Positions 1-30,396 of a DNA stretch of 54,430 bases are shown here, one piece after another. The number at the start of each line of letters is the position of its first letter. Within the stretch, counting starts at the first letter, position 1. The DNA comes from a bacterium (lineage in GTDB: Bacteria; Verrucomicrobiota; Lentisphaeria; Victivallales; GWF2-38-69). The stretch is taken from the NCBI GenBank assembly GCA_021781705.1, contig JAJXWI010000011.1:1-54430 (forward strand), given 5' to 3'. The notes beneath the pieces were generated by a model. The model was not told where the DNA came from. It made no database searches and saw only the letters and a list, made by a program, of their open reading frames with translations. A program made the translations under genes and the position numbers.

Positions 1-672
1 TGCCTCTTTGGCTTTATCCTGCAACTCCTGGGCTTTAGCTTTCGCTCCTTCTATCGCTTTCTCTACTGTTGCCTTGGCTTGGGTTTTGGCGTTTTCTACT
101 GCCTCTTTGGCTTTATCCTGCAACTCCTGGGCTTTGGCTTTGGCGCCTTCTATCGCTTTCTCTACCGTTGCCTTGGCTTGATTTTTGGCATTTACTACTG
201 CAGCCTTGGCTTGATCCTGCAATTCCTGGGCTTTGGCTTTGGCATCTACTATCGCTTTCTCTACTGTTGCCTTGGCTTGGGTTTTGACATTTTCTACCGC
301 AACTTTGGCTTTATCCTGCAATTCCTGGGCTTTGGCTTTAACCTCTGTTACAACTTTTTCCTGTAACTCTTTAGCTTTGGCTTTTGCATCTACTACAGCT
401 TTTTCCACCGTCTCTTTGGCTTTGTCTTGCAACTCTTTAGCTTTGGATTTTGCTTTATCTTGCAATTCCTGAGCTTTAGCTTTAGCTTCCGCTACAGCTT
501 TTTCTTGCAACTCTTGAGCTTTGGCTTTGGCATCTGCTACAGCTTTTTCTACCGTTGCTTGGGCTTGGGCTTGCAATTCTTTGGCCTTGGCTTGAGCTTT
601 AGCTTGAGCTTCTTTCAATGCAGCTTCAGCTTTGGCTTTGGCACTGTTTAACAGATCATCAAAGAAAGACAT
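1..672 (-). CDS. Hendecad-repeat (LEA/apolipoprotein-like) protein, partial
   Basis: This reading frame has no stop from an ATG at 672 to the window edge (224 codons) and continues leftwards. After a short hydrophobic start (MSFFDDLLNSAK) the protein consists only of Ala/Lys/Glu/Gln-rich units. The last copies repeat every 99 bp, which is 33 residues or three 11-residue units of the type AKAKAQELQDK, AKEAVENAKTQ, AKATVEKAIEG. Eleven-residue amphipathic repeats are typical of group 3 LEA proteins, apolipoproteins and hendecad coiled coils. There are no Cys, Trp, Pro or His residues in the visible part and no membrane segment. It starts 50 bases after the clpV stop on the same strand, with a possible ribosome site (AAAGG), so it is probably the next gene of the T6SS operon. 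The function is unknown: a structural rod, a membrane-surface binder, a stress protein or a secreted cargo are all possible. Confidence 0.8.
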   Translation of the reverse strand, partial: MSFFDDLLNSAKAKAEAALKEAQAKAQAKAKELQAQAQATVEKAVADAKAKAQELQEKAVAEAKAKAQELQDKAKSKAKELQDKAKETVEKAVVDAKAKAKELQEKVVTEVKAKAQELQDKAKVAVENVKTQAKATVEKAIVDAKAKAQELQDQAKAAVVNAKNQAKATVEKAIEGAKAKAQELQDKAKEAVENAKTQAKATVEKAIEGAKAKAQELQDKAKEA

Positions 673-721
673 ATTTACAACCTTTATTATCTCACATTTC
701 TTGGGAATTTATTTTAGAAAT

Positions 722-3472
722 TCATTCCCACGAATACGCAAAATTCTCTTTTTTATCGGTTCTTATTGTAACCTTCTTAATTTCTTTTCCCTCAGACAAA
801 CGCATTAAATACTTATTGCTTATCTCAGGCAAAATATTATGCGTTAAGATTGCATCAACCATACGCGCCCCGCTCTCGAGTTCTGTACATTTTTTTGCTA
901 TCTGTTTTACGACTGAATCATCATAAACAAGCTGTATATCTTTATCTTCAAGCATCCGAGTCTTTATCCTAGACAGTTGAAGTTTTATAATTGCACTCAG
1001 CATTTTATCACTTATAGGGTAGTATGGAACAACAGATAACCTGCCAAGAAAGGCAGCAGGGAAAACTTTCAACAGGGGCTGGCGCAAAGCTTTTTCCAGA
1101 GCTTCAGATTCTGGCATAATTTCAGGATCTTTACACATGTTCATTATCAAATCGCTGCCCACATTAGTAGTCAAAAGGATAACTGTATTCTTAAAATCAA
1201 TTTCCCGCCCTTCTCCATCTTCCATCATGCCTTTATCAAAAACCTGATAAAAGATTTCATGAACATCATGATGCGCCTTTTCTACCTCATCTAACAGGAC
1301 GACACTGTACGGTTTACGCCTGACCGCTTCTGTCAAAACACCACCCTCTCCGTACCCGACATATCCTGGAGGCGCTCCTTTTAGCGTAGAAACAGTATGA
1401 GCTTCCTGAAATTCGCTCATGTTTATTGTAATAAGGTTGTGTTCTCCGCCATAAAGAGCCTCCGCCAAAGCAAGGGCCGATTCTGTTTTCCCTACTCCGC
1501 TTGGACCAGTAAGCATAAATACGCCTATTGGGCGACCTGGATTGCCCATGCCTGCACGCGAAGTTTGAATGCGTCTGCTTATCGTATCCATGGCATGACG
1601 CTGGCCAATAACACGTTTTTCAAGAGTGTCTGAAAGTTTCAGTACTGATGACACCTCATCTTTAACCATTCTTCCTGCGGGAATACCAGTCCAGTCAGAG
1701 ATGACAGCGCCTATAACATTTGCATCTACATCTGGCAGGATAAGCGGATTTTCACCTTGTAATTTTTCTAGCTTATTTTGCACCTGTTTAAGGTTTGCCA
1801 ACATAGCAACTTTCGGATCATCTTTTGCCTTAGAAGCAGATTTTGTCGTTTTTTTCTTACCCGTCTCAACTTTTTCAGCTACCGTTTCCGGCTCGGATAA
1901 ATTATCAACCTTTTTACCGTGAGACCTAAGCTTTTTCCGTAGCTCGAGAATTTCATCTACCAATGTCTTCTCTTTCTGCCAGTTTTCTTCCAAAACGTTA
2001 AGCTCACCCTTAGCCACATCAATCTTTTTTAAAACTTCTTTTCTGCGCGACTCGTGGTCGTAACCTACAGAAGTTTCTCTATCGATTATTCCTAGCTCTG
2101 TTTCAAATGTTTCAACCCTTCTTCTTGTATTTTCCACCGCAGAAGGGACAGCATACTGACTGATCGCGACTCTGGCGCACGCAGTATCAATTAAACTTAC
2201 GGCTTTATCTGGAAGTTGACGTCCTGAAATATACCTGTGAGAGAGCTTAACAGCTGCTTCAAGAGCCTCGTCCAACAATAATACTTTATGATGTTTTTCA
2301 AAAGGAGCCGCAATTCCTCTCATCATTATTAGAGCCTTCTCTTCCGTGGGTTCGTCTATTTTTACCACTTGAAATCTCCGAGTCAAAGCAGCGTCCTTTT
2401 CAATGTGCTTCTTATATTCTGCCCATGTAGTAGCAGCTATTGTCCTTAATTGACCTCTAGCAAGAGCCGGCTTTAAGAGATTTGCCGCATCTCCAGTCCC
2501 AGAGGCACCTCCTGCCCCGATAAGAGTGTGAGCTTCATCTATAAATAGTATAATCGGTTGTTCCGATGCTTGAACCTCTTCAATGACCTGACGAAGCCTG
2601 TTTTCAAATTCACCTTTCATGCTCGCACCAGCCTGAAGCAAGCCTATATCTAAAACTCTGATTGAAATATTTTTCAACGGTGGGGGAACATCTCCGCTGG
2701 CAATCCTGAGGGCAAGCCCATCAACCACAGCAGTTTTTCCTACTCCTGCGTCTCCTGTAAGGATGGGATTGTTTTGCCTCCTGCGCATAAGAATATCCAA
2801 CATCTGCCTGACTTCCTGATCTCTACCTAAAACAGGATCTATTTCGCCCTTTCTCGCTCTTTCCGTTAAATCTACTGCATACTTCTTTAACGCTTCCTGT
2901 TTTCCCATCATAGCGGGGGCAACCGCTCCGCTCGCCTCGCCTGGAGCGTATCCGGCGGCTATCGCTGCTGTGTCATCAGAAGAAGATAAATGATTTTCAT
3001 TTGAATTCTTGACTATACTCCTAAAAGAGTCTACCAACTCATCGATTTTTATTTTCTTAAACTCATCTGATATACCGTAAATTTCATTAGCCAAATTTTT
3101 AGTTTTTAGCACGGCAATAATCAGATAACCTGTTCTTATTTTTATGTCTTTGAAGAATAGTGTGGTATAGAGCCAGGATTGCTCCATTAATTCATCAATT
3201 CGCGATGACAAATCTGAAATAGAACTTGCTCCAGTAGGTAAACGATCAAGATAGCCAATTATATCCGCAGTCAATTTAGAGCTATCGATATTAAAATGCC
3301 TGACAATAAAAAATAAATCTGAATTGTCATATTGAAGCATTTGCCGAAACCAGTGCACAAGCTCTACATAAGGATTGCCTCTTAGTTTACAAAATACAGT
3401 AGCACCTTCAAGAGATTTGTACCCGACACTATTAAGTTTTTCAAACAATGAAGCTCTTTGAATATCCGACAC
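722..3472 (-). CDS. clpV: T6SS ATPase ClpV (TssH)
   Basis: An AAA+ unfoldase of the ClpB/ClpV class, 916 aa, which disassembles the contracted TssB/TssC sheath so that subunits can be reused. The N-terminal domain (about 1-160) begins in typical ClpV fashion, with ALF-type and EGATVFCKLRGNPYVELVHW motifs. The first nucleotide-binding domain has Walker A GDAGVGKT at 240-247 and Walker B LFIDEAH. A charged coiled-coil middle region carries a Lys-rich insert (KKKTTKSASKAK). The second nucleotide-binding domain has GPSGVGKT and VVLLDEVEKAH. The start is GTG at 3472, preceded by AAGGAAA. It lies 24 bases after the PAAR-like gene in the T6SS operon, which separates it from housekeeping ClpB. Confidence 0.96.
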   Translation of the reverse strand: MSDIQRASLFEKLNSVGYKSLEGATVFCKLRGNPYVELVHWFRQMLQYDNSDLFFIVRHFNIDSSKLTADIIGYLDRLPTGASSISDLSSRIDELMEQSWLYTTLFFKDIKIRTGYLIIAVLKTKNLANEIYGISDEFKKIKIDELVDSFRSIVKNSNENHLSSSDDTAAIAAGYAPGEASGAVAPAMMGKQEALKKYAVDLTERARKGEIDPVLGRDQEVRQMLDILMRRRQNNPILTGDAGVGKTAVVDGLALRIASGDVPPPLKNISIRVLDIGLLQAGASMKGEFENRLRQVIEEVQASEQPIILFIDEAHTLIGAGGASGTGDAANLLKPALARGQLRTIAATTWAEYKKHIEKDAALTRRFQVVKIDEPTEEKALIMMRGIAAPFEKHHKVLLLDEALEAAVKLSHRYISGRQLPDKAVSLIDTACARVAISQYAVPSAVENTRRRVETFETELGIIDRETSVGYDHESRRKEVLKKIDVAKGELNVLEENWQKEKTLVDEILELRKKLRSHGKKVDNLSEPETVAEKVETGKKKTTKSASKAKDDPKVAMLANLKQVQNKLEKLQGENPLILPDVDANVIGAVISDWTGIPAGRMVKDEVSSVLKLSDTLEKRVIGQRHAMDTISRRIQTSRAGMGNPGRPIGVFMLTGPSGVGKTESALALAEALYGGEHNLITINMSEFQEAHTVSTLKGAPPGYVGYGEGGVLTEAVRRKPYSVVLLDEVEKAHHDVHEIFYQVFDKGMMEDGEGREIDFKNTVILLTTNVGSDLIMNMCKDPEIMPESEALEKALRQPLLKVFPAAFLGRLSVVPYYPISDKMLSAIIKLQLSRIKTRMLEDKDIQLVYDDSVVKQIAKKCTELESGARMVDAILTHNILPEISNKYLMRLSEGKEIKKVTIRTDKKENFAYSWE

Positions 3473-3496: not shown

Positions 3497-3886
3497 TTAT
3501 GCAATATTTGTAGTTGCCTGTCCTGCGTTATTAATGCTGATCACACCCCCATAGCTGCATATGCATTTTGATGAATTATTGAGAGCCGGCATGTTGCCGA
3601 TTAAAACCGTAGGAGATCCGGGCACCCATGGAGCTACCGTCGCAGGAACGCAAGGCATTGGAGTTAAAACTCCCAAAGCTGCTGCCGTAGCCGAAGCAAC
3701 CGTTGGATTAGCAGGACAACTGCACATTCCAAAAGTCGGAATATTAACAATTGGTTTGTTGTCCATAATATTAGCCGCCGGCACATTATTGCACATTGTG
3801 CAATTTGTCGGCAACACAATAAGACTCGTAGGAGCTGCACCGAAAGAACATTGCAACATTGCACCCATCACTACCAGTTGCCCCAT
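3497..3886 (-). CDS. DUF4280-type PAAR-like T6SS spike tip
   Basis: A small Cys-rich, Gly/Pro/Asn-rich protein of 129 aa with the DUF4280 pattern: an MGQLVVMGAMLQCSFGAAP start, a VLPTNCTMCNNVPAANIMD segment, a GMCSCPANPTV block, CVPATVAPWVPGSP and a final ALNNSSKCICSYGGVI. DUF4280 proteins are regarded as PAAR-like, forming the sharpened tip on VgrG, often with metal held by Cys or His. The conserved Cys pairs are all present. No effector domain is fused to it, so it is a bare tip. A strong ribosome site (AGGAGAG) precedes the ATG at 3886. It sits between the lipoprotein gene and clpV, in keeping with a T6SS role. Confidence 0.85.
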   Translation of the reverse strand: MGQLVVMGAMLQCSFGAAPTSLIVLPTNCTMCNNVPAANIMDNKPIVNIPTFGMCSCPANPTVASATAAALGVLTPMPCVPATVAPWVPGSPTVLIGNMPALNNSSKCICSYGGVISINNAGQATTNIA

Positions 3887-3947: not shown

Positions 3948-4439
3948 TTAATTCTTAACATCTAGTACCCCATTACGTACGTTAACATTTAATTTTTCAT
4001 CGCATAATCCCCACCAATTACGATGTTTGAGCTGAACAAACTTCTTCCAGTCAACATCCTTTCTAGCACTATCAGTAAAGTCAGGCGAATAAGCAACAAT
4101 ACATAGATATTCCATATCAGTGTCCTTCCAAACACCCCACACATTATCGCTATAGTCCAAAGACTGAGCTCTAGTAGTTTCTGGACCAAAATAAAAAACT
4201 TTTCTATTCTCAGGATATTGACCTTTAGAGTCAAAAACCTTCATCCAAAAATCATTGTATGTTATTATTTTCATCCCTTCAAATTTATCAGAAGGAATAC
4301 CAAAAAGGTAAATTTCAACGCTTTCTTGATTATTATTCAAATCATTAGTTATTTCAGTGGAATAATTGTAACTCGAACACGCAGTTATAATCACTATAAC
4401 TATCAGAGTCAAGAACCATACATACCATTTTATCTTCAT
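3948..4439 (-). CDS. TssJ-like lipoprotein (inferred)
   Basis: A 163-aa exported lipoprotein: a hydrophobic signal of about 20 residues ends in a lipobox (IITAC-SS), so Cys21 would be lipidated. The mature part is a small domain with VEIYLFGIPSDKF and NDFWMKVFD segments. These recall the strand and F-x-x-A-D-F-F-x-L pattern of TssJ, the outer-membrane lipoprotein that anchors TssM. Its place directly upstream of the PAAR-like gene and downstream of tssM, with no other TssJ candidate in the operon, supports that role. Sequence similarity alone is too weak to be sure, and an immunity or accessory lipoprotein remains possible. The ATG at 4439 has a GGAG site nearby. Confidence 0.55.
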   Translation of the reverse strand: MKIKWYVWFLTLIVIVIITACSSYNYSTEITNDLNNNQESVEIYLFGIPSDKFEGMKIITYNDFWMKVFDSKGQYPENRKVFYFGPETTRAQSLDYSDNVWGVWKDTDMEYLCIVAYSPDFTDSARKDVDWKKFVQLKHRNWWGLCDEKLNVNVRNGVLDVKN

Positions 4440-4505: not shown

Positions 4506-7500
4506 CTAATTCTGATACTCATTTATTTTCTTCAATATCAGTTTATGATCTTCGCTTTCAAGACACCCCCTAAGGCATTCAGCTCCCTCGGGCATTGTAA
4601 ATGCTAAATATATATTCAACTCTTTCTTATCTTTAAAAACAAAACTGATCTTTGAAATCCATACACCTATATCTTTATTGAATCTTGCGGCATGCCATGT
4701 AATCGAGTACTTATTATTAAACATCGGCACAGGGCTTGGGTTATCAATCATAAACTTGAATAGTGGCAAAGTCCCCATTAATAAAGATTCCTCCGGCTTA
4801 TCACTCGCTAAACTCTCAAATGTTCTATAAAATTTAATTTTTAGAGACTTATTGTCTGTCAACAGAACTTTGTCAAGAAGAGAATTATCCTTCGTTCTTG
4901 TCAATGCTGCAACTGGCTTATAATCCGCCCCCTTTTGTTCGACACTGACAGCTATCCATACATTTGAAGCACTATCTTTCTCAAAATCCTTTGAATAATC
5001 CGTACCTAGCAGATAGACTTTTGAAACAAAATCCCTATTGGTACGTACAAATGAAATTATCTCCCTTGCGCTGCTTATCCATTGAGTTAGAACAGGCGGC
5101 AAATCTTGCTTGATCTTTATAATCTTCTGAAACTTGACAGGCTGAGCATCTGTTTTGCCAATCTCGTCCTTAACAGCAACATCGGGCGGCAAAACCTCAT
5201 CAAGAGCACTACTTAACTTATCTGCATTACGAATCAAATCTTCATTTGGCTGTAATTCATTAAAAGTAAAGGGAAAACTGGATTTCGAAAGAATATCGAG
5301 ATACATGCCAATTACTGAAAATTCTACGAGATACGGAAAAATAAAACCGACATTTTCACTATATTTTATTTCTTTGTTATTAAGAAGGCTAAAAATGTTA
5401 TTTGCAATTTTATCTTTCGATTTTTTATTATAATCTGACATAAAATCAATGAGGCGCCTTAGTGCTAGGTCATATAACAAATCAGATTTAAAAGTGTCTA
5501 CTTCGTTCGCATACTTTTTTGAAAAATTATTATTCTTGTAATTGAACATTTCATAAAATGGAGAGAACAAGTAGTCTTGTTCTTTTGTTAACATTATTTC
5601 AAGGAGCCAGTTCCGATACAAATTCCTTTTTAGCCCCAGTTCAAAAAACAATGTATCTCTAAAATCTTTGATAACATCGAATTTGATTGTATTATTGGTG
5701 GCATCAAATGTTAATACATGACTATCCGCATTAATTGAATCTTGATCTCTTGCCACTATTGAATATCCCATAACAATCGTTTTGTTATCATCTGACATCT
5801 CCATATCAATATTGCGGACTGTACTTATTAGATCTTTTAAAGTTCTTCCCTTTTTTACCATTTCATCTATGGATAAATTCTGGAAGAAATGTTCTTCGTC
5901 TTTTTCGTAGTTTTTGGCGTCAATTAAAAACTGCCTCATTAAAAGTGTATTTATATGACGATCACGAAGATTCATTGACTTAGGTCCCAAAACATAATCT
6001 TGTATACAATATTCAATAAAACTTAAAACATTGCTTTTATAAACCTCATCATTTGCCATAAAGTCAGATTTTTTAAGTTTGGTAAAACTTCTGCCAATTC
6101 CATACGGCAAACTACTCGAATCAAAAAGCTGTTGTAATCCTATTTTTACTCCAGACAACAACTTTAATTTGTTATCTGTATTTTTATCAAAACTCTTCAA
6201 CAAGTATCTATATGTATCCTCAAGGTAAAGATATAATCCAGAAAATTGCCACGAGCCAAGATAGTAGTGAAAGAAATTCTTTTTCCCTGCCTCATAATCA
6301 CATAGGATTTTTGCGTATCCAAAAACATTAGCAAATATCTCTGCCTTAAAGTGGTCAAATTTATTAACCTTGACTGAATATTCCTTTAACAAAGCTTCCA
6401 TAAGAGGGCTAATAATACTGGTATATAGAACTGTATTTCTTGCCCTGTCTTTTTGTTTGTTTATCCCAGCAGCCCATTCAGACAGTAAATATATTGATGG
6501 AATATTTATTTGCGCATCATTTTGCCTGTAGAAATCCAGAATGAAATCAAGATTATCCTTTCCATTTATCGTGGAGTTTGCCAAAGAATAGTCTCCCTTG
6601 TCGGATAATAAAAGAAGAGGGCTGAATTTTCCATTTTCCCAATAGTTAACGTTCGAACAAATTCTCCACGATTTTGCCTTTGTAGCCATAACCTCTTTAC
6701 TGAGATTATCAGTGTTAGTAAAACTGTAGTATACAAATAAAAAAATTGCCGCCACACCTATAGTCGATAATAAAATTTTCAGGATTCTCATAAACAAAAA
6801 GTAAAAATCTGTGTAGACTATTAAATTACGCTCTTTTAATATCTTATTTCGAAATAAATCTTCTAAGAAAAACACAGAGTTGTCTTTGGTTTCTGCAAGA
6901 GCTTTAGACTGCTTGTCTGCCGGGATTTTATAGTATCGCAATTGTGAATTAACATCAGAATAACTCATATAAGTGTATCTGTTATCACTTTTGATAGCCG
7001 TAAAATAAACGCCCCTTAATTGAAGCGGATTAAAATGCCATGTCGCATTAGAGAAAACATTTCCTACAAAAATCTTTAAAGATGGAATAATATTCTTAAT
7101 AGTTTTACAAAAACAAAAGGAATTAATCCCTGAGTTTTTAGTTGTTAGATGAAGCTTGCCTTGTTCTTTGTATAATGGTTTGTAGATACTATTTGAAAAT
7201 TCTTCAAAATAATTATTAATGCTTTTTTCGTCTAAGACTTCATTAATTTTCAGATCAGATGACCATCCCACCATTTGCTTAGATCCATAGTGTTCGAGGC
7301 TAGCAGCATAGTCATAAAAGCCGTAAACAAGATCTGCTCTATCAATCAAAAGATAAGCTGGAAATCTTATTCTTAACTTGCGTTGAACAATCTCCATTTT
7401 TTTTGCAATATTTTTTGCATTCTCTTTTAATTCAGAATGATCTGTATGGGAAAAATAGTTAAAAGGAAAAGACATGACATAAGAGTTAATAGGAGCATAT

Positions 7501-8042
7501 CTTCTTGCTTTTTTCAAAAATCTTAACAGATACCTGAATTTTTCGTTTAGAGGCGAAGAAGCACTGGTAATATCGAAAAACTCTGGACCTACATCAAATA
7601 CCGTAAACTCCGGAGAATACCATACAGAAAAACCACTATCCTGTTTTTTGTTTAGCTGTAGTAATTTTAAATTTGCTCGTGAAAACAATTCATCCCCGGT
7701 TGCCTCCTCTGTGCTAGTAAATAAAATCAATGGGGTTTTTTTAAAATTTTTATCTTCTTTTTTTAATTTCTTAAAAATAGCTTTCAATTCTGATTTCATT
7801 TTGCCAGACACAGTATCTGTAAGGCTTTTTCTTTTTTTATTCATGAAAAAGAACATCAGAAACAAAGCTATTATGAAAGCAAAGAAAATCACTCCCACCA
7901 CAAGCCAAAACAGAACTGACTGATTGTAAATTTCTTGCTTAGAAAGGAAATAAAGCGCTAATGCGCTAGCTAAAACAACAACAATAGACACACCTACTTT
8001 TTTTGAAAAATAACTCTTAAGAAAATCTAATAATTCATTCAT
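4506..8042 (-). CDS. tssM: T6SS membrane-complex protein TssM (IcmF), P-loop lost
   Basis: A large inner-membrane and periplasmic core protein of the T6SS membrane complex, about 1,178 aa. Two membrane helices lie near the N-terminus (about 20-37 and 47-70), a cytoplasmic domain follows, a third helix is near residue 430 (ILLSTIGVAAIFLFVYYSF), and the rest is a long periplasmic region, as in IcmF. Where TssM usually has GPPGAGKT, this protein has TSTEEATG (about 112-119). The Walker B-like stretch reads TVFDVGPEF instead of VLIDTAGRY, so ATP/GTP binding is unlikely. Some functional TssM proteins also lack the motif. I prefer the ATG at 8042, nine bases after a GAGGGG site, over a TTG at 8051 that abuts that site. 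It follows tssL directly. Confidence 0.88.
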   Translation of the reverse strand: MNELLDFLKSYFSKKVGVSIVVVLASALALYFLSKQEIYNQSVLFWLVVGVIFFAFIIALFLMFFFMNKKRKSLTDTVSGKMKSELKAIFKKLKKEDKNFKKTPLILFTSTEEATGDELFSRANLKLLQLNKKQDSGFSVWYSPEFTVFDVGPEFFDITSASSPLNEKFRYLLRFLKKARRYAPINSYVMSFPFNYFSHTDHSELKENAKNIAKKMEIVQRKLRIRFPAYLLIDRADLVYGFYDYAASLEHYGSKQMVGWSSDLKINEVLDEKSINNYFEEFSNSIYKPLYKEQGKLHLTTKNSGINSFCFCKTIKNIIPSLKIFVGNVFSNATWHFNPLQLRGVYFTAIKSDNRYTYMSYSDVNSQLRYYKIPADKQSKALAETKDNSVFFLEDLFRNKILKERNLIVYTDFYFLFMRILKILLSTIGVAAIFLFVYYSFTNTDNLSKEVMATKAKSWRICSNVNYWENGKFSPLLLLSDKGDYSLANSTINGKDNLDFILDFYRQNDAQINIPSIYLLSEWAAGINKQKDRARNTVLYTSIISPLMEALLKEYSVKVNKFDHFKAEIFANVFGYAKILCDYEAGKKNFFHYYLGSWQFSGLYLYLEDTYRYLLKSFDKNTDNKLKLLSGVKIGLQQLFDSSSLPYGIGRSFTKLKKSDFMANDEVYKSNVLSFIEYCIQDYVLGPKSMNLRDRHINTLLMRQFLIDAKNYEKDEEHFFQNLSIDEMVKKGRTLKDLISTVRNIDMEMSDDNKTIVMGYSIVARDQDSINADSHVLTFDATNNTIKFDVIKDFRDTLFFELGLKRNLYRNWLLEIMLTKEQDYLFSPFYEMFNYKNNNFSKKYANEVDTFKSDLLYDLALRRLIDFMSDYNKKSKDKIANNIFSLLNNKEIKYSENVGFIFPYLVEFSVIGMYLDILSKSSFPFTFNELQPNEDLIRNADKLSSALDEVLPPDVAVKDEIGKTDAQPVKFQKIIKIKQDLPPVLTQWISSAREIISFVRTNRDFVSKVYLLGTDYSKDFEKDSASNVWIAVSVEQKGADYKPVAALTRTKDNSLLDKVLLTDNKSLKIKFYRTFESLASDKPEESLLMGTLPLFKFMIDNPSPVPMFNNKYSITWHAARFNKDIGVWISKISFVFKDKKELNIYLAFTMPEGAECLRGCLESEDHKLILKKINEYQN

Positions 8043-8059
8043 ATCATACAACCCCTCAA

Positions 8060-8767
8060 TTAATTCTCTGTGACATCTTCGTACTGGGCGTTATCTTGAA
8101 TCCCTTTAAATTCTGATAATAACGGCAGTGATGTTTTATAAAATAAAAAAAAGTTAATACCAAAGGCAACTAAGAATAAAGCTATTAGTATCCATGAAAT
8201 CATTCCAAAAGAAAGAAAAGCCTTATAAACAAAGCTATCGCCACAAATTCTTTCATAATTCTTCTCACATAAAACACGACTTGCCTGTTTTAAATGAATT
8301 TCAGGAACTCTATTTGATATTCTATACATAATATTTTCAATTTTTTCGGGATTATTTTCATAATATCCCCTAAATCCTAAGACGAGAAATAAGTAAAACA
8401 CATCAAGACATTTGTCATATTGAGGGTCATTTTTACTATAGATTTCTTCAAAAATATCAAAAAATTTTTTATCCCCTGTCATTATAGCCTTACTGTACGC
8501 CAACCTATTTTTATCCCATTCCCCAGCAATTGGCAAATTCGAGCTGGCAATCATATAATCTATAAAAAAAATCAAAGGCAATTCCATCTTTTTGTATAAA
8601 TCACTAGTTTCTATACCTGCTGCTTTTACCTTACTTTCTATGTCGGCAATCAGTCCAAAAATTTCCCTCACAACTTCAGAGAGTTCTGTCTTGCTTGTCG
8701 TATCTATATCACTTCTGAGAAATGCGATATAATTTAAAACAGGCTCAAATAATAAAGACAAATTCAT
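8060..8767 (-). CDS. tssL: T6SS membrane protein TssL (DotU)
   Basis: A DotU-family inner-membrane protein of 235 aa that pairs with TssM. A cytoplasmic helical domain with the family's ELPLIFFIDYMI-like and GEWD segments and a FYLFLVLGFRGYY block is followed by one C-terminal membrane helix (about 185-210) and a short tail. It has no peptidoglycan-binding OmpA extension, so anchoring to the wall would depend on other proteins. The frame extends 13 codons upstream into tssK, but the ATG at 8767 has a good AAGGAT site and lies four bases after the tssK stop, so I use it. The gene ends just before tssM. Confidence 0.9.
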   Translation of the reverse strand: MNLSLLFEPVLNYIAFLRSDIDTTSKTELSEVVREIFGLIADIESKVKAAGIETSDLYKKMELPLIFFIDYMIASSNLPIAGEWDKNRLAYSKAIMTGDKKFFDIFEEIYSKNDPQYDKCLDVFYLFLVLGFRGYYENNPEKIENIMYRISNRVPEIHLKQASRVLCEKNYERICGDSFVYKAFLSFGMISWILIALFLVAFGINFFLFYKTSLPLLSEFKGIQDNAQYEDVTEN

Positions 8768-8771
8768 ATTG

Positions 8772-10154
8772 TTATCCTTCGTTTTTTTGTATATACAAAT
8801 CGACACTCTTTATCGGTTCAGCTACCTCATCTGTCAGAGAAACATCTATTTTCTTTTCTTTGATTATCTTGTGCCAGATCAAATCGTCTTTTGAGGAAGT
8901 ACTCAAACGGAAGTAGTAAAGACCAATAAATTTCGGAAACCCGTTTGGCAAAATGTGCTGATGTTCAAGTTTTATGCCAGGAACAGCCTTCCCTTTATTC
9001 AGGGAAGGAGGTAACACCTTGAAGCTGTCACCCTTTTCCACAACGTTTATGATATCAGTTGATGGGCTTTGAGTAAATATGCCTATGTAATATTCATTAA
9101 TATTGGTAGAAGTGACGCTGCTTATGTCAACTTCATATAGATTTTTGTTAATTGATTCAAACTTTTCTTTCCTGTACAATTGTATATACGCAGGATGCAA
9201 CAATAGCTTCCCTATAGCTTCTTTAAGGCTCTGCAAGCAAGTAAACAAATCTTCATGATTATATTCTGGAACTTCAGTAAATAAATCAAACTCAGGCACT
9301 ATGATAGCTAGCTCGCCTGCAAGAGAAACCAATTTTAAATACACATCAAAAGGTGTAATGTTTTTTTGAGAAATCATTCTCGATAAAAACATTCCATTTG
9401 AATTTAAGGACGATAATCTTAAAAAAGCTTTTACAAGTCTTTCAGGAGCATCATAAAAAAACTCTGAATCTTTTATTACTTTATCAAGCGCTTTCGCTGC
9501 AGTCCTGATTTTATAAATTGTGTCATTAAAAATTCGCAAAAGTTCAGCCGATGCAGAAATAAAATAACAGGGAGGAATGAAGTTACTACTAACCTTACGA
9601 CCTTCACGTCCGTCGGAGAGTACCTGTTTCTCAATCTTCATAAGGGGAATTATTTCATACCCGTCTCTGTCTTCACTTTCAAAAAATAGACGAAGCTTTA
9701 TTTTCCTAGTAAGAATAGGCATCGGATTTTCGCAATTATCTTCGTCATTCCAATTTAATTCTTCGACACTATATAGCCGGTCTATCTGCCACTTGGAATC
9801 TCCAACTGCAGTGTTCGGACGATTATTAGACCAGATTGGAATACCAAGATAAACTAAAGAGGAACTACTTAAGACTTCTTCGTAGTCCTTTAGATTAACA
9901 CCCTTCAGCACGGCATTTGCATTTATATCAACATAGGTTCCGCTTGGCATGTAGGCGCTTAACTCATTGAATTCCAGATACCCTTCCTTAATCCTTGCCG
10001 TATTAATATCGAAACTTGTAATACCATAACTGTGACACTTGTTTCGGCTATGTTCATGCTGAAACTGTTCTTCTATACCTCTTTGAAATTTTTGAAAATG
10101 ATGGGGCTGTATAAACAACCCTTCATGCCAATATAAATCTCCTGAAACAAACAT
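8772..10154 (-). CDS. tssK: T6SS baseplate protein TssK
   Basis: A 460-aa baseplate adaptor that links the TssE/F/G wedges to the TssL/TssM membrane complex. The N-terminus carries the family signature of a W-x-E-G-L-F motif followed by PHHFQ (WHEGLFIQPHHFQ, about 9-21). The rest matches the usual TssK length and layout, with a shell-like domain and a C-terminal domain that contains YYFRLS. The ATG at 10154 is preceded by AAAGGAAG. It sits between tssG and tssL, its usual neighbours. Confidence 0.94.
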   Translation of the reverse strand: MFVSGDLYWHEGLFIQPHHFQKFQRGIEEQFQHEHSRNKCHSYGITSFDINTARIKEGYLEFNELSAYMPSGTYVDINANAVLKGVNLKDYEEVLSSSSLVYLGIPIWSNNRPNTAVGDSKWQIDRLYSVEELNWNDEDNCENPMPILTRKIKLRLFFESEDRDGYEIIPLMKIEKQVLSDGREGRKVSSNFIPPCYFISASAELLRIFNDTIYKIRTAAKALDKVIKDSEFFYDAPERLVKAFLRLSSLNSNGMFLSRMISQKNITPFDVYLKLVSLAGELAIIVPEFDLFTEVPEYNHEDLFTCLQSLKEAIGKLLLHPAYIQLYRKEKFESINKNLYEVDISSVTSTNINEYYIGIFTQSPSTDIINVVEKGDSFKVLPPSLNKGKAVPGIKLEHQHILPNGFPKFIGLYYFRLSTSSKDDLIWHKIIKEKKIDVSLTDEVAEPIKSVDLYIQKNEG

Positions 10155-10203
10155 TTTTTCTTCCTTTCTATTAAATACAGCTAATCAAGTCTTTTTTAAT
10201 ATT

Positions 10204-11229
10204 TTAAACAACATTTATAACCACCTTATTGTCAACAAAAACTGCCGGACTGCTTCTTAGCCAAAAAGTGTACCCAAGATAGCATGTTTTCCCTAACGAC
10301 ATAACCGGAATTTCAGGATAGTCAAGTATTAACTGAATGTCAAAAGTGAATTTCTCTGTAACATAATACCTAACCCAGCTAACCAGTTGGTAGTACGCAT
10401 GCTTGCCTGGAAACATCTGCATATATTTCACAAGCTTCATAGGTCCTAAAATCACCCTGAATTTCATCATGCAGTCAATAAATCTTTCTCCCAAAATAAT
10501 GTTCTCCCCAAGCATTCCAGATCCACTCTTTCTTCCAAGGCAAAAGCGATCTTCTATCGGGATGTTAAACTTTTGAACTATAAAAGGTTTCACTTCGGCT
10601 TTTGTTTTAAAATAATCGCTTAAGATTGCCGTTAAATTTGAAATGTTTGGCGTATAGAGCATGTGGCCGGAAAAGTAAAGGCGCGAATACAAAGATATGG
10701 GAGACTCATCTTTGGCCCTAAGAAAAACTCCAAGCCCAACTATTGAAGCTAAATATTTTGTAAAATTATCATCTTCTCTCCTGTCCGCATTAACCGTCTG
10801 TTGATTTATTGCCCATGCTTTGTAAAAAAGAGACAACATCCTGTGATGGAATATATCCATGAAGTTTATCAGGCTGTTGTCGTCATAATGCTTATTGCGA
10901 TCAAATGCGTATTCAGTAAAAACCAATGGCAAAGGAGCATTATTCCCCCATAATCCAAAAAAATTCACATATACGCACGCAGGATTTTCTTCTGAATGAG
11001 CAGAATACTCGTCAATTTCCGAATCTTTAAAAGCAAGGGACGGCTTCTGCTTAAACCTTACAGCCTCTTCTTCAAGAGTATCCGAATCACCTGTCCTTCT
11101 ATAGTTTTTATTTTTAGAATAATAGAAACTGTCAAGATTCCTGACTGCCTGAAAAAAACCCCACTTTAGAGGATTATCTTGCAGTGATGACTCTATGAAG
11201 TTTGCTGATATCCTATTCTTATAGGCCAT
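10204..11229 (-). CDS. tssG: T6SS baseplate protein TssG
   Basis: A 341-aa TssG-family baseplate wedge component that acts with TssF and TssE. Recognisable segments are FFQAVRNLDS near the start (about 25-34), the FFGLWGNNAPLPLVFTEY block (about 90-107) typical of TssG (F-G-L-x-G-x-x-x-P-L-P), FMDIFHHRMLSLFYKAW, and a C-terminal LGKTCYLGYTFWL. The start overlaps the 3' end of tssF by 37 bases with its own GAGGGG site, so the two are probably translationally coupled, as expected for proteins that assemble in a fixed ratio. Confidence 0.92.
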   Translation of the reverse strand: MAYKNRISANFIESSLQDNPLKWGFFQAVRNLDSFYYSKNKNYRRTGDSDTLEEEAVRFKQKPSLAFKDSEIDEYSAHSEENPACVYVNFFGLWGNNAPLPLVFTEYAFDRNKHYDDNSLINFMDIFHHRMLSLFYKAWAINQQTVNADRREDDNFTKYLASIVGLGVFLRAKDESPISLYSRLYFSGHMLYTPNISNLTAILSDYFKTKAEVKPFIVQKFNIPIEDRFCLGRKSGSGMLGENIILGERFIDCMMKFRVILGPMKLVKYMQMFPGKHAYYQLVSWVRYYVTEKFTFDIQLILDYPEIPVMSLGKTCYLGYTFWLRSSPAVFVDNKVVINVV

Positions 11230-13064
11230 TTTGCAATAACCCCTCTTCCTTTAGACAAAATTTGAGTTTCAGTAAAAGAATTTATCGGCGCGCTAGCTCC
11301 AAAAAACCTGTCCAAAATAGATCCTAATAGAAAAAAACCGCTTCCAGAAAAAGATTCTTCGTTAAAAAGAATATCCACACTAAAACCACGGCCAAATAGA
11401 ATCGGCCCGACAGAGCCTACGCGTCTTACAACGGATTTAATCAATATAGACTCAATGCCATTTTCTATCGTGTTGTGATCTGGCTCAGAATATGCATACA
11501 TCGCCTGTACATTGCGAAGATTTTTAATATTAATCTCATTACTCTCAGTCAGGAATGAAAAAAAATTCACCGCAGTGTTGTTGATAGCTTGCCATTGGGG
11601 AACATCAAACGGCATTCTTGGGACTGTCGGAATCTCGATACATTTTACGCTTACGACAGGCACAGCAGCATCTAACTTAAAGTCTGTTTCGTACTCATTT
11701 ATATTCATTAGCATCGGAAGATCTCTATTAGAACACCATGCGATAACACCTATCTCGTCCAGGGTTCCTTTATAAGGAGGATTCGCTGTATCTATTATGG
11801 ATAAATAAAGTTCAGATCCCCTATAGGACGTTCTTGTGCCGTATTCCTTTTCTTTTTCTGAAATAACCCTCGGAACTCTTTTGTAATTATAGAAAGCCTT
11901 TTTACCAAATCTATTCGCCTTGAAATCAGAATCAGAATAAAATGGTAAAAATTCAAGCCTGTTACTATAGTCAGCGTTATACCCGTCGACGCTTTCGATC
12001 TGCAATATCTCATAATCCATAGGATAAACCCTATCTGCCGGCACGTAAAATTCGGGATCTTTTTTATTGATAGCAACTCTACTTAGGCTACTTCTAAATA
12101 AATTTACAGCCGGACAGCAAAATAAACACAAGTTTTCTTTCCCAAGATTTTTAAGCAGGCTACTACTTTTCTTAAAAAGAAAAACTATGTTTATATCCGA
12201 TTCTTCGCACTTCTTCAATATATCAGATATTCCTGTCAACTCGAAGAACATAAATTTTGGGGGGAATAAATAGTATTCCCGCAAAAGCCTGTGTCCTTCA
12301 AAAGTCCTCTTATCAATTGGAAAAATGGACTCCAATTCGCTAAATCCCACCTGCTTTAAATGCCCCTTCAAAGATGCAGCACTAATTTCGGCATATTTCT
12401 TTCTTCCATTTTTAGACTGGAATAGAACACCAGAACACTCCCCAAAAATCTGTTCATACAACATCATGCCGACATTTCCATCTGCTGAACGTATATAAAA
12501 TCTCAGAGAATCTATGTTTAACTGGCCTATTTTTAGTTTTTCAGGAGTACTCAATGACAATTCCATTGAAGCTCTAACAGATGAATTCACCTCCAACTTT
12601 TCTTCAATCCCGCCAATATTGTATTTCAGAAAAGTTATGGCTATAGGATATAATGCCAGATCTGATGTCGTCCTAAATTTGCATATCTGGTGGTCTTCGC
12701 CGCAAGGATAACTCTTAAGTAATGTTCCGGCCTTAAAAAAAACTCCTTTTGCCAAGACGGGTTTTTTATAATCGGGTAAAAACTGAACAATTGTGCATGA
12801 TGGAGAAGGATTATAATACTGTGGGAAAATTGAGTTCCCTAGAGATTGTGAAAATGAAGAAAGCTCTGTATCCATTTTGTATTGAATACGTGCCGCCATA
12901 TAAGCAAAGCCTTCCAGAAGCCTCTCTACATAAGGATCCTTGCAGTCAAACTCATCAAGCATTAGCCTTTTGGCTATTTTGGGATTCTGCCTGGCAAATT
13001 CACCGCTCATCTCTCGGAGATAACGCAACTCAGTATTGTAATGTTCTAAAAATTTTCTATCCAT
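11193..13064 (-). CDS. tssF: T6SS baseplate protein TssF
   Basis: A 623-aa TssF-family baseplate protein. It opens with the family signature: FLEHYNTELRYLREMSGEFA, then PKIAKRL and DPYVERLLEGFAYMAARIQ. This is followed by the FPQYYNPSPSCTIVQF segment. It forms the baseplate wedge with TssG. The open frame extends three codons upstream to a GTG at 13073, but the ATG at 13064 matches the usual TssF start. It is preceded by tssE and overlaps tssG. Confidence 0.94.
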   Translation of the reverse strand: MDRKFLEHYNTELRYLREMSGEFARQNPKIAKRLMLDEFDCKDPYVERLLEGFAYMAARIQYKMDTELSSFSQSLGNSIFPQYYNPSPSCTIVQFLPDYKKPVLAKGVFFKAGTLLKSYPCGEDHQICKFRTTSDLALYPIAITFLKYNIGGIEEKLEVNSSVRASMELSLSTPEKLKIGQLNIDSLRFYIRSADGNVGMMLYEQIFGECSGVLFQSKNGRKKYAEISAASLKGHLKQVGFSELESIFPIDKRTFEGHRLLREYYLFPPKFMFFELTGISDILKKCEESDINIVFLFKKSSSLLKNLGKENLCLFCCPAVNLFRSSLSRVAINKKDPEFYVPADRVYPMDYEILQIESVDGYNADYSNRLEFLPFYSDSDFKANRFGKKAFYNYKRVPRVISEKEKEYGTRTSYRGSELYLSIIDTANPPYKGTLDEIGVIAWCSNRDLPMLMNINEYETDFKLDAAVPVVSVKCIEIPTVPRMPFDVPQWQAINNTAVNFFSFLTESNEINIKNLRNVQAMYAYSEPDHNTIENGIESILIKSVVRRVGSVGPILFGRGFSVDILFNEESFSGSGFFLLGSILDRFFGASAPINSFTETQILSKGRGVIAKWPIRIGYQQTS

Positions 13065-13121
13065 AACAATCACCGTTCTAGATCACACACGATAGACTAA
13101 AGTCTATGACCTACCGTCTAT

Positions 13122-13646
13122 CTAACCTTTCCTGCTCATCAAACAAGTTCCAGTTTGAAAATTTATTTCAGTTGTTAGGTAAATATTTTCTCTGAAAGGC
13201 AATGACCATAAACTCCCTCTAATTTCGTAAACAAGTACGAAATCTAAACCTTCTCGCGATTGCCTTCCTACTATCCTAACTTCAAGCGTATCGGGAATAA
13301 TTCTTGGCTCAAATGTTAATATCGCATTCTCAATTTCCTTTTGAATCCGATCCGCATTTACCGGATTAGCTTCTAACCCCGCAAATGATGGCACACCATA
13401 AGTAAGAACAGAGCTCCTGACATGTCCAAGGTCTTCATCTATCTCATTTATTGACAAATGAGCACCAGAACCTAGAAGCCAACAAAGATCTCTTAGAACA
13501 TTATCACGGTATTGATCCAATGTAACGTAACGGAATCTTTCGCTGTCCTTCTTTGCCCGTGGATATCGATCTATTAAGCGATCCAAAAGGCATGGCAACA
13601 CTACATCTTTATTACTACTTCTGCCTTTTGGTTCCATTGTTTCCAT
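13122..13646 (-). CDS. tssE: T6SS baseplate protein TssE (gp25-like)
   Basis: A 174-aa gp25/lysozyme-fold baseplate protein that starts sheath polymerisation. It shows the expected N-terminal LLDRLIDRYP segment, the YRDNVLRDLCWLLGS region, the family LTYGVPSFAG motif, and the C-terminal EPRIIPDTLEVRI with an EIRGSLWSLPF segment. The ATG at 13646 has an AGGA site; a second ATG lies three codons in. It sits between tagJ and tssF. Confidence 0.93.
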   Translation of the reverse strand: METMEPKGRSSNKDVVLPCLLDRLIDRYPRAKKDSERFRYVTLDQYRDNVLRDLCWLLGSGAHLSINEIDEDLGHVRSSVLTYGVPSFAGLEANPVNADRIQKEIENAILTFEPRIIPDTLEVRIVGRQSREGLDFVLVYEIRGSLWSLPFRENIYLTTEINFQTGTCLMSRKG

Positions 13647-13703
13647 AAATTATCCTAAGACTATCTACGACAAACCAGTGAGTACAGTTTTCAATCTGTA
13701 CTT

Positions 13704-14474
13704 CTATGTCTTAAACTCTACATTTCTAACATCAAGCAGGGAATATTCGCTCTTATCAGTAGTAAACATCCGTTGCCCAAGCCCACAATAGAAATCTTTA
13801 TATCTTTCATTCCAGATAGTTTTTCTCGCAACCCTCAAATCGTCATCGTCAGAATTTGAGGAATCAACATATCTTGAGGGAATAAATCCAACGGCGTCAC
13901 CTCCATTTGTCCATGTAAAACTAGCTGGACACCACACAAAATCTCGCACCTCAACAGGTGCAGATATTTTTAATGACTTTATATTCGCAAAAGACGTCCA
14001 GTAGTATTTTCCGTTTATGATCACTTCTAAAACAGGACCTAAACGGGAATCCATATCTGCGATCCAGCTGAATTCTTCGCCGTTAATAGTCCCTGCATAG
14101 GCGGGGGATTCATCATACGCCTTACGGCGCAGAGCACACGCCGCCTTATGCTCGGACTTAATACTGAGCTGGTTTGCTTTTACAAGCATTCCCAGCCATT
14201 TCTCAGGCTTGCCAAGAACTAATGGATCATTTCCCTCATGAAAAACACCTTCTCTGATAATCTCGCACTCCGGCAATGGCTTATAGACCATTGCCGTTAG
14301 TGCGGTCTCATCGTCTCCCAACTCGGACATGATTCCTAGTTGAGCTAAAGATTCTTTCCACTTTCCAAAAATAGACAACAACTGAAAATAGAGCACTCTA
14401 GACTTGACATCAGTAGGATTCTTCTTGACCTCAAGCTTAGCTTTTTCCAATCTATGTTTTGTGTCTCTATTCAT
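13704..14474 (-). CDS. tagJ: T6SS accessory protein TagJ (ImpE/SciE family)
   Basis: An ImpE-family protein, 256 aa from the ATG at 14474. The N-terminal helical part (RLEKAKLEVKKNP, VLYFQLLSIFGKWKESLAQL) resembles a TPR-like fold. The C-terminal part has the family signature GEEFSWIADMDSRLGPVLE, followed by GKYYW and a VRDFVWCPA block. In other systems TagJ binds ClpV and the TssB/TssC sheath and helps sheath turnover; it is found in only a subset of T6SS types. The open frame continues upstream to a TTG at 14522 that overlaps the preceding gene; I favour the internal ATG. Confidence 0.88.
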   Translation of the reverse strand: MNRDTKHRLEKAKLEVKKNPTDVKSRVLYFQLLSIFGKWKESLAQLGIMSELGDDETALTAMVYKPLPECEIIREGVFHEGNDPLVLGKPEKWLGMLVKANQLSIKSEHKAACALRRKAYDESPAYAGTINGEEFSWIADMDSRLGPVLEVIINGKYYWTSFANIKSLKISAPVEVRDFVWCPASFTWTNGGDAVGFIPSRYVDSSNSDDDDLRVARKTIWNERYKDFYCGLGQRMFTTDKSEYSLLDVRNVEFKT

Positions 14475-14490
14475 CGATATTGTTCCAGCC

Positions 14491-14997
14491 TCAAGAACCA
14501 ACTGTCTGTTTAATAGTGTCAATGTTTAGCGAGTATTTATTTACTCCTTGTTCATTGAAGACTTCTACTTTAGCAGTTCCTGTAAGTGCTCCGCATACTG
14601 TATTCATAGCCTTACTATCTATACCACTTAGTGTAAATGTCGACTTTATGGCTGGTACTACTTTCGCAGATTCAATAGCTTGGTATGTAGTGACTACAAA
14701 ATCAAACTTCTTAGTCGAGTTATTTCCTAAATCTGGACGTAGTTTTCCCATCACTTCGTCAGGAACTCCGACAACCACAGTGTTATTTGTAAACGCAGAC
14801 ACCTCGGAGGAAGCGGCTGGAAGAGCAACACATGGCTGTAATTTGTGACCTTTGACAAAGTACCAATCTTCTTCTACTCCATCAGCCTTAGGTACATCAG
14901 TGCCCTGCGCTGGGCCGCTGCTACATTTAAAACCATACCCTTTTATAATAATAGGGGTATAACCGGTAGTAAGCACCGAATTTGAATCTATTGGCAT
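14491..14997 (-). CDS. Hcp-position protein, divergent tube protein or unknown T6SS component
   Basis: A 168-aa soluble protein directly after tssC, where hcp (tssD) is usually found. It has a very strong ribosome site (AAAAGGAGAA), as expected for an abundant protein. Its length and apparent beta-rich composition fit a single-domain tube protein. I do not see the usual Hcp motifs, such as an N-terminal FLKIDGIKGES-like segment. Instead it has YTPIIIKGYGFKCSSGPA, DWYFVKGHKLQPC and a C-terminal ALTGTAKVEVF. No other Hcp candidate is present in the window. It is therefore either a very divergent Hcp or an uncharacterised T6SS protein. Position argues for the first and sequence leaves it open. 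Confidence 0.5.
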   Translation of the reverse strand: MPIDSNSVLTTGYTPIIIKGYGFKCSSGPAQGTDVPKADGVEEDWYFVKGHKLQPCVALPAASSEVSAFTNNTVVVGVPDEVMGKLRPDLGNNSTKKFDFVVTTYQAIESAKVVPAIKSTFTLSGIDSKAMNTVCGALTGTAKVEVFNEQGVNKYSLNIDTIKQTVGS

Positions 14998-15023
14998 AAC
15001 ATTTTCTCCTTTTTATCTTTTAA

Positions 15024-16520
15024 TTATTTTTTTTGTGAAGGTAATTTTGTTACTAATCTCAACGACACAGACAACCCTTCAAGTTGAAAGTGTGGTCTCA
15101 AATAAAACGTTGCCTTATAATATCCTGGATTAGACTGATCCTCTTCAACTTTTATTTCTGCCGCAGATAGGGGATACCTTGACTTACTTTCCTGGCTGGC
15201 ATTTGGATCCAAAGTGATATATCTATTAATCCAGCGCTGCAAATATTTTTGAATATCCTCTCTTGAAGCAAACGTCCCAATCTTATCTCTAACCATGCAC
15301 TTCAAATAATGCGCAAATCTTGATATTGCAAACATGTACGGCAATCTAGCCGATAGGTTTGCATTGGCAGTTGCGTCCGGATCGTCATATTGTGACGGTT
15401 CATACGCTGACTGCGCGCCCATAAATGCAGCATAATTAGTATTTTTCCAGTGTATCAGAGGCAAGAAGCCATTTTTGGATAGCTCTGCTTCGCGACGATC
15501 GGTAATTGCAATTTCTGTAGGACACTTCATTGCTACGCCCCCGTCATCAGTCTTAAATGTGTAGACTGGCAAACCAGAGACCATACCTCCGCCTTCAACC
15601 CCGCGAATCGCTGTACACCACCCGAATAGCTTAAACGCTTTATTTATGTTAACACCCATTGCATATGCAGCATTCGACCAGACAAATCTTTCGTCAACTG
15701 CTCCTGCAGTGTCCTCTGTGAAGGAAAATTCTTCAACCGGATTATCCTTTTCATTGTAAGGCAGCCTTGCCAAAGTACGCGGCATAACAAATCCTACATA
15801 CTTTGAATCTTCTGTTTTTCTAAAACCTTTCCAAGCTGCGTATTCAGGACTTGAGAAAATTTTTGTCAAATCTCTTGGATTAGCTAGCTCTTGCCACGAT
15901 TCAATGTTAAAAAGAGTTGGCTTTATCGATGTCAGAAAAGGAGCATGGGCTGCAGCAGCAATCTGTGAAACCCCGCTTAGAATAGCTAGATCAGGTGCAC
16001 TATGGTCAAAGAAATAATCTCCGACAATACATCCGATAGGTTCGCCGCCGGCGCTACCAAACTCTTCTTCATAAAATTTCTTAAACAATGGGCTTTGATC
16101 CCATGCAGTTCCTTTGAAAGCCTTTAGGGTTTTTCCGAGCTCGTTTTTGCTGATATTAAGAACTCTAAGCTTCAAGCTCTCATCAGTCTCTGTGTTATTA
16201 ACGAGATAATCAAGCCCTCTCCACGAAGCTTCCAATTTCTTAAATTCTTCATTATGAAGAATATGATTTATTTGTTCTGTCAATTTCTTATCAATCGCAG
16301 AAACCATATTTTTTATAGTTTCCACAACTTTCACATCGATAAGAGCTGTATTTGCAAGCGCCTGCTGAGCCAATGTATTTACAGCTTTAGTTATAGCTTC
16401 TTTTGCTTGATCACTTTTAGGCTTGAAAGCCTTTGTCAGCAGCGAATCAAGCTCGCTAGCCTGAACATGCTGTTCGGCCACAGCCTCTGTTTGTGGCTGT
16501 AATGATTTCTCTTCAACCAT
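15024..16520 (-). CDS. tssC: T6SS sheath large subunit TssC (VipB)
   Basis: A 498-aa TssC-family protein that polymerises with TssB into the contractile sheath. After an N-terminal leader of about 90 residues come the family motifs EFKKLEASWRGLDYLV, CIVGDYFFDH, the FSSPEYAAWKGFRKTEDSKY region, a VWSNAAYAMG segment, and the C-terminal LRPHFQLEGLSVSLRLV. The length is normal. It follows tssB by 18 bases and is expected to be co-translated in large amounts. Confidence 0.97.
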   Translation of the reverse strand: MVEEKSLQPQTEAVAEQHVQASELDSLLTKAFKPKSDQAKEAITKAVNTLAQQALANTALIDVKVVETIKNMVSAIDKKLTEQINHILHNEEFKKLEASWRGLDYLVNNTETDESLKLRVLNISKNELGKTLKAFKGTAWDQSPLFKKFYEEEFGSAGGEPIGCIVGDYFFDHSAPDLAILSGVSQIAAAAHAPFLTSIKPTLFNIESWQELANPRDLTKIFSSPEYAAWKGFRKTEDSKYVGFVMPRTLARLPYNEKDNPVEEFSFTEDTAGAVDERFVWSNAAYAMGVNINKAFKLFGWCTAIRGVEGGGMVSGLPVYTFKTDDGGVAMKCPTEIAITDRREAELSKNGFLPLIHWKNTNYAAFMGAQSAYEPSQYDDPDATANANLSARLPYMFAISRFAHYLKCMVRDKIGTFASREDIQKYLQRWINRYITLDPNASQESKSRYPLSAAEIKVEEDQSNPGYYKATFYLRPHFQLEGLSVSLRLVTKLPSQKK

Positions 16521-16538
16521 ATTTTTATCCTCCTTGTT

Positions 16539-17039
16539 TTAAGCTTCTTTAGGTTTTGCCTGAGCAGTAAGAGTCTTAAGAAGCTCAGGATCATTTACTA
16601 CTTTTGCAATAAGTTCTTCAGCATCATCTTTCCCATCCATGTATGTAAGAAGGTGAGACAACTCTTCTCTTGCACTCAATAGCTTATTCAATGCATCAAC
16701 CTTCCTGGCGACAGCAGCAGGAGAAAAATCATCCATGCTTTCGAATGTAAGATCTACACTCAATTCGCCTTCTCCTGTTAAAGTATTTGGAACTCTAAAA
16801 CTAGCTCTCGGCTTCATTGCTGCCATGCGATCATCAAAGTTGTCGCAATCTATTGCGAGAAGTTTACGTTCTGAAACTTTCGGCAGAGGTTCAGCAGGAT
16901 TCCCTGTTAGATCAGCCATCACTGTCATCACAAATGGGAGCTCCTTCTTTTTCTCTGCTCCGTATGTCTCTATGTCGTACTCAATTTGTACTCTTGGAGC
17001 TCTATTCCTCCCAATAAACTTTTGACCACTATCTACCAT
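16539..17039 (-). CDS. tssB: T6SS sheath small subunit TssB (VipA)
   Basis: A 166-aa TssB-family sheath protein and the first gene of the T6SS operon. Diagnostic features are the RAPRVQIEYDIETYGAE segment, the LPFVMTVMADLTG motif, the FDDRMAAMKPRASFRVPNTL region, and an FESMDDFSPAAVARKV block. The ATG at 17039 has a GGAG site, and a sigma70-like promoter lies about 50-75 bases upstream. Confidence 0.97.
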   Translation of the reverse strand: MVDSGQKFIGRNRAPRVQIEYDIETYGAEKKKELPFVMTVMADLTGNPAEPLPKVSERKLLAIDCDNFDDRMAAMKPRASFRVPNTLTGEGELSVDLTFESMDDFSPAAVARKVDALNKLLSAREELSHLLTYMDGKDDAEELIAKVVNDPELLKTLTAQAKPKEA

Positions 17040-29460: not shown

Positions 29461-30396
29461 CTACGCAGTAAGGTTGGCCGCCATGGCGTTCACGCGGTCT
29501 GTAAGGTCTTTCCAGGTTCCGGCAACACCCGGCACAACTGCCTGGCCGCCGAGTTTTCCTTCTGTTCCTACTTCCTTGGCCACACGGGTAACTTCCGCGC
29601 CAAATAAAGTCAGGTTGTCCACCATTTTATTGATCGTATTCTTTAACTCCAGAATTTCGCCTTTTGCCTCTACCGTGATTTTCTGTGTCAGGTCTCCGTT
29701 GGCCACTGCGGTGGTTACCTGTGCAATATTACGCACCTGACTGGTTAAGTTTCCGGCCATAGCATTTACATTATCTGTAAGATCTTTCCAGAGGCCTGCG
29801 ACTCTTTCTACCTTTGCCTGCCCGCCTAATTTTCCTTCTGTTCCCACTTCCTTGGCAATACGGGTAACTTCTGCACCAAAGGTGTTAAGTGAATCCACCA
29901 TAGCATTTAAGGTGTTTTTAAGTTCAAGAATCTCGCCTTTTGCCTCTACGGTCATTTTCTGAGATAAATCTCCTTTAGCAACTGCGGTGGTAACCTGGGC
30001 GATATTACGCACCTGCGAGGTGAGGTTAGACGCCATAGCATTTACATTATCTGTAAGGTCTTTCCATGTTCCTGCAACACCCGACACTACGGCCTGGCCG
30101 CCAAGTTTTCCTTCTGATCCTACCTCCTTGGCCACACGCGTAACTTCACTGCTGAAACCTGTAAGAAGATCAACCATGCTGTTATATGAATCTGCCAATT
30201 CTCCGAAGATATCCTCCCCCCTTGACTTCAGCTTTTTCGTAAGATCGCCCCTTCTTACCGCTTCCAGCGCGTCTAACAAATCTCTTAGCCGCTGTTCTGA
30301 CTTATCATCAAACCCTTCCCTTTCTGTTGCAACTGCTTCATCATCTGATTCACGGAAAAGAACCTTCTTTGCTTCTTGTCTAATTGGCTTTACCAT
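29461..30396 (-). CDS. Poly-HAMP cytoplasmic chemoreceptor, N-terminal part
   Basis: Start of the same receptor, with a good site (GGGGAAG) before the ATG at 30396. The first 50 residues are charged, with a basic N-terminal peptide (KPIRQEAKK) and no signal or membrane helix. Three 92-residue HAMP repeats follow (EGKLGG-type units). The frame then ends at TAG at 29461. With the downstream frame the protein would be 1,056 codons with about seven repeat units. Unless the stop is read through or is an assembly error, this part would be made without a signalling domain. parA lies 21 bases upstream. Confidence 0.92.

Follow-up and report, generated by a model that had tools for sequence, protein, structure and literature searches.

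The window analysed here, a whole contig of 54,430 nucleotides (one of 140 in a 2.58 Mb genome that is 96% complete), begins inside a long repeat-containing gene located directly behind clpV of a T6SS cluster. The position raises the question of whether the gene product is a novel component of the secretion apparatus or a lineage-specific neighbour of it.

A hendecad-repeat gene behind clpV

The gene was found at the end of a minus-strand cluster comprising clpV/tssH (722..3472; TIGR03345, 1258 bits), a gene for a PAAR-like, IglG-like DUF4280 protein (3497..3886; PF14107, 125 bits; NF041248, 63 bits, below its cut-off), a gene for a small lipoprotein with an ITAC lipobox in a TssJ-like position (3948..4439; assigned from its sequence and from weak similarity, tblastn 3e-4, to the stretch before tssK in a relative's locus, L124), and tssM, tssL, tssK, tssG, tssF, tssE, impE/tagJ, hcp, tssC, and tssB (4506..17039; identified by Pfam and NCBIfam matches and tblastn to relatives, with hcp, which had no Pfam match, assigned by position). 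This cluster is a genuine, nearly complete T6SS. A TssA-like (ImpA_N) gene (31615-32676, plus strand) is separated from the main operon by chemotaxis genes and is encoded on the other strand. Two adjacent in-frame ORFs elsewhere in the window (27226-30396, minus strand), one encoding HAMP repeats and the other HAMP repeats plus an MCP signalling domain, look like one HAMP-array chemoreceptor interrupted by a lone in-frame TAG codon (about 29461-29463); the paralogous repeats of this protein read through the equivalent position.

The assembly was searched for vgrG with TIGR01646, PF04717, and a relative's VgrG, and none was found. Given a nearly complete T6SS, a missing vgrG is most simply placed in the gap beyond the repeat gene, and we conclude that the assembly has probably lost a vgrG island past window position 1. 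Alternatively, the VgrG of this genome may be too diverged for the queries used, because PF04717 recognised two of three relatives' VgrGs and missed the third.

The hendecad-repeat ORF starts with an ATG at position 672, reads on the minus strand to position 1, and is still open there (1..672, at least 224 residues); since the contig ends inside the gene, the C-terminus is missing. When the rest of the gene was sought in the same genome with the protein, the DNA, and a 23-base repeat pattern, only the window locus matched. The 49 nt that separate the clpV stop from the ATG (673..721, minus strand) contain an AAAGG ribosome-binding-like site suitably spaced 5' of the start, and a terminator scan of this gap reported no terminator-like site. 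The GC3 of the ORF, 0.38, falls within the range of the other window genes (0.31-0.39), so the ORF bears no mark of foreign origin. A preliminary description had proposed a helical Ala/Lys/Glu/Gln protein of this length, encoded downstream of clpV and in line with the operon; both points were confirmed, the two genes being on the same strand.

The preliminary description also spoke of near-perfect 99-bp repeats. These were recovered in the distal half of the readable gene (1..339, minus strand), where TRF and a repeat-spacing search revealed 99-bp, or 33-residue, tandem units (3.4 copies, 89% matches), but the proximal repeats have diverged and are interspersed with 15-residue insertions: here, TRF reported 144-bp units of 48 residues (33 + 15) built of 45-bp and 33-bp subunits (215..606, minus strand; 2.7 copies, 77% matches). 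Repeat spacings were 99, 99, 144, and 144, with identities of 100, 90, 84, 65, and 60%; divergence thus rises from the contig end toward the N-terminus. Self-matches of the protein peak at lags 11, 15, 22, 33, and 48, which, taken with the TRF units, indicates that it is made of 11- and 15-residue units (33 = 3 x 11; 48 = 33 + 15). Mixing the two keeps the hydrophobic seam.

Since the contig terminates within a repeat, and its bases 1-36 are identical to bases 100-135, the tandem copies could be false products of assembly. Against this, the copies diverge stepwise, the reading frame remains open and is preceded by a ribosome-binding site, and the distal two copies differ by synonymous changes only (four, versus no non-synonymous changes, in 26 codons), a pattern consistent with a tandem array that expanded recently while its protein sequence was maintained. 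We therefore consider an artefact highly improbable. Short-read assembly is expected to stop where the first 36 bases of a contig recur, and it is more likely that the repeat caused the contig break than that the break created the repeat.

Helix geometry and similarity to known families

The hydrophobic periodicity of the protein peaks at 3.68 residues (11/3 = 3.667), with a power of 2829 versus a maximum of 1489 in 2000 shuffles. The best helical angle was 98.5 degrees (3-11 helix, 98.2; heptad, 102.9), while the heptad coiled coil of the chemoreceptor from the same window, used as a control, gave ~103 degrees. Measured from the hydrophobic face, basic residues lie at a mean angle of 89 degrees and acidic residues at 132 degrees, a charge order matched in 0 of 5000 permutations of K/E positions (a test that overstates significance, the repeats not being independent) and not seen in the chemoreceptor control. 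Lysines beside the hydrophobic face and acidic residues further round constitute a class-A/LEA-type layout. The face itself is chiefly Ala with some Val, Leu, and Ile (15% non-Ala hydrophobics). The protein contains 43% hydrophobic residues, 39% charge, and no aromatics past residue 11; the mean hydrophobic moment is 0.264 (18-residue windows, own script), and the helix is weakly amphipathic. AlphaFold2, run on the single sequence, returned one helix spanning residues 3-223 (pLDDT 78.5), which, being modelled without an alignment, lends weak support. The helix thus begins at residue 3, and no N-terminal domain was recognised. The sole aromatic or bulky hydrophobic patch, MSFFDDLL, lies in the N-terminal segment MSFFDDLLNSAKAKAE (625..672, minus strand; hydrophobic moment 0.37 for residues 1-18). 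On inspection of the readable sequence, no signal peptide or membrane span was apparent, and the protein is therefore taken to be cytoplasmic.

The best Pfam match of the protein was Apolipoprotein (PF01442; 6.6e-11, 42.7 bits versus a cut-off of 90), and the traits of that type are present, namely an amphipathic 3-11 helix in which Lys lies at the interface and acidic residues occupy the polar centre. There was no match to LEA_4 (PF02987) at E<=1, nor did the LEA_4 profile match anything else in the genome. The protein also matched ATP synthase b, DivIVA, tape-measure, and designed proteins, but these hits were dismissed as generic to helices. We conclude that the protein resembles LEA and apolipoprotein helices in its physics, and to this extent the likeness originally proposed stands; membership of either family does not follow from the profile scores.

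In common with exchangeable apolipoproteins, the protein has interfacial Lys and outward-facing acid; it differs in having no proline at all and low hydrophobicity. In common with group 3 LEA proteins, it is hydrophilic, rich in Ala, Lys, and Glu, and composed of 11-residue amphipathic units. The group 3 11-mer reads hydrophobic, hydrophobic, E/Q, X, hydrophobic, K, E/Q, K, hydrophobic, X, E/D/Q (PMC10295645); the present protein contains no full match, and at most two 8-of-9 windows, which are identical copies. Perilipin 4 shares with it 33-mer repeats (3 x 11), near-identical distal copies, and almost no aromatics (PMC5889406), as well as a similar moment (0.257 at 35% hydrophobic residues; PMC5889406), although this comparison is approximate because the published values were obtained via Heliquest. 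Among the lipid-binding helices of the published table, perilipin 4 has the lowest moment (apoA-I, 0.39), and its helix gains affinity with length (PMC5889406). However, perilipin 4 is a eukaryotic lipid-droplet protein of 29 uninterrupted copies, with 15% charge versus 39% and no 15-residue insertions, and the likeness is one of type, not of demonstrated homology. BilRI of Aggregatibacter is likewise encoded by a stand-alone LEA-like gene beside an envelope machine, but it is an outer-membrane protein encoded next to competence genes, and its deletion lowers transformation (PMC8096337). By this precedent, an indirect influence of the hendecad protein on the T6SS is possible.

Distribution of the protein and clpV loci of relatives

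At 1e-6, the 137 genomes of the order contained no relative outside the genome of origin, and a 388-genome sample of the phylum gave two faint helix matches and no convincing relative. A scan of 84,980 species contigs with the repeat protein, which may leave out records very near this genome, produced 279 pattern matches and no confirmed relatives; plasmid and phage searches also revealed none. Such searches can miss orthologues of fast-evolving repeats. With the low-complexity filter on, a self-search still scored 2e-63, so the filter would lose weak relatives only.

Among 198 genomes of the class, TssF scored over its cut-off in five others, all of the same order, and the hendecad protein is absent from all five. 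The family of this genome is represented by three genomes, and the other two have no detectable TssF. In three of the five, L121, L122, and L123, where the region after clpV in the main cluster was read, it holds vgrG directly, or after a short PAAR-like stretch (the latter deduced from an antisense ORF at that place). Eighty named clpV loci of other organisms, of which 71 extend more than 1 kb past clpV (358 kb of downstream sequence in total), contained no ORF of such composition and no match to the protein. A vgrG gene was detected in 31 of the 80 loci, about 0 to 4.8 kb beyond clpV, indicating that the stretch after clpV is variable. DUF6931-related proteins are encoded after vgrG in order relatives (L124:10246-11382; L121:19251-20000; L122:19233-20000; the latter two matches just under the Pfam cut-off), and that of L124 contains a long Ala/Lys/Glu-rich helical linker. 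Homology of the hendecad protein to DUF6931, considered on account of this linker, found no sequence support.

Proteins of similar appearance do occur in the phylum, where the Apolipoprotein profile detected 11 and the LEA_4 profile two sub-threshold proteins. Among those read out, L137, L142, and L144 are short and lipoprotein-like, L146-L148 are DUF883/ElaB-like and have a C-terminal glycine-zipper (profile test on L146), and others look like RmuC-like or other membrane-linked coiled coils, named from the appearance of their sequences. L137, L144, and L146-L148 have Ala/Lys hendecad helices with a period of 3.6-3.7, but differ from the present protein in carrying lipoprotein-like signals or a C-terminal glycine-zipper anchor, and show no close sequence relation to it. 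No T6SS genes were found in the roughly 1.5-kb flanks of the proteins read out. Ala/Lys hendecad helices are therefore scattered and recurrent in the phylum, only the present one being beside a T6SS. This comes near to the scattered, T6SS-unlinked orthologues that the preliminary description regarded as arguing against a T6SS role, except that these proteins are analogues rather than proven orthologues.

Possible functions

The reading that we favour, with a probability of about one half, is that the gene encodes a lineage-specific, cytoplasmic, amphipathic surface-coating protein of the LEA/apolipoprotein/perilipin 4 type, whose gene occupies an accessory slot after clpV and probably shares a transcript with the T6SS genes, the product having no structural role in the machine. 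Such a protein would be weakly folded in water; on lipid surfaces or partly dehydrated ones it would adopt a single long 3-11 helix. The narrow Ala/Val/Leu face would rest on the surface, Lys would lie at the interface, and Glu and Asp would point outward, so that the surface is coated or shielded. The N-terminal MSFFDDLL patch could position the end of the helix on a membrane, while the long repeat part might zip along the surface or shield proteins, with affinity growing with length as in perilipin 4. The gene would adjoin the vgrG/effector island. The main uncertainty of this reading lies in the unread C-terminus, where a further domain could alter the picture. The tight 49-nt spacing behind clpV, free of a terminator-like site, fits a functional tie to the T6SS and counts against this reading, as does the fact that the protein barely fits the group 3 LEA rule.

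The cargo and ruler roles suggested earlier draw only on the position of the gene and are opposed by the lack of a relative in any other T6SS locus examined. That the protein is an accessory or cargo component, either the N-terminal helical stalk of, or a stand-alone adaptor for, a VgrG or effector encoded just past the contig end, is unlikely. The slot is suggestive, as it follows clpV and precedes the position at which vgrG (with or without a PAAR gene) and then DUF6931-related genes occur in order relatives, the missing vgrG points to an island in the gap, and the Ala/Lys/Glu-rich helix of the L124 protein provides a parallel; yet the protein is unrelated in sequence to DUF6931, and its helix starts at residue 3 in place of a recognised N-terminal domain. 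Right-handed coiled coils can be built from hendecads as well as from 15-residue units, which favours a structural rod or ruler, for example one that controls T6SS sheath length or a tape-measure analogue. The protein also weakly matches a phage tape-measure family (3.9e-4), which points in the same direction, and the weak ATP synthase b and coiled-coil matches may leave room for a rod. However, tape-measure and ATP synthase matches are typical of low-complexity helices, core positions that are mostly Ala with few bulky residues would make a poor core (though Ala-rich packing is possible), and the T6SSs of relatives lack such a gene, which means that the machine does not need one. We regard a rod as quite unlikely. 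It is likewise quite unlikely that a giant LEA/perilipin-like helix has been recruited to the T6SS, e.g., to coat a membrane or spike cargo, or to shield the firing cell. A literature search joining T6SS with hendecads or with LEA proteins returned nothing relevant, and such recruitment, if true, would be a T6SS-associated function absent from the literature searched. Should the hendecad protein indeed act with the T6SS, the machine would gain a factor that coats membranes or cargo.

The link of the hendecad gene to the T6SS is weak, and the gene is probably more a lineage-specific neighbour than a new machine part, although a private T6SS role in the present lineage alone could still exist. 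The case warns against assigning a gene to a T6SS solely by its place in an operon. The repeat explains why the contig breaks here and probably also the break of the vgrG island. The protein is an expanding bacterial helix built of 11- and 15-residue repeats, with numbers like those of perilipin 4, whose helix type is known mainly from eukaryotes.
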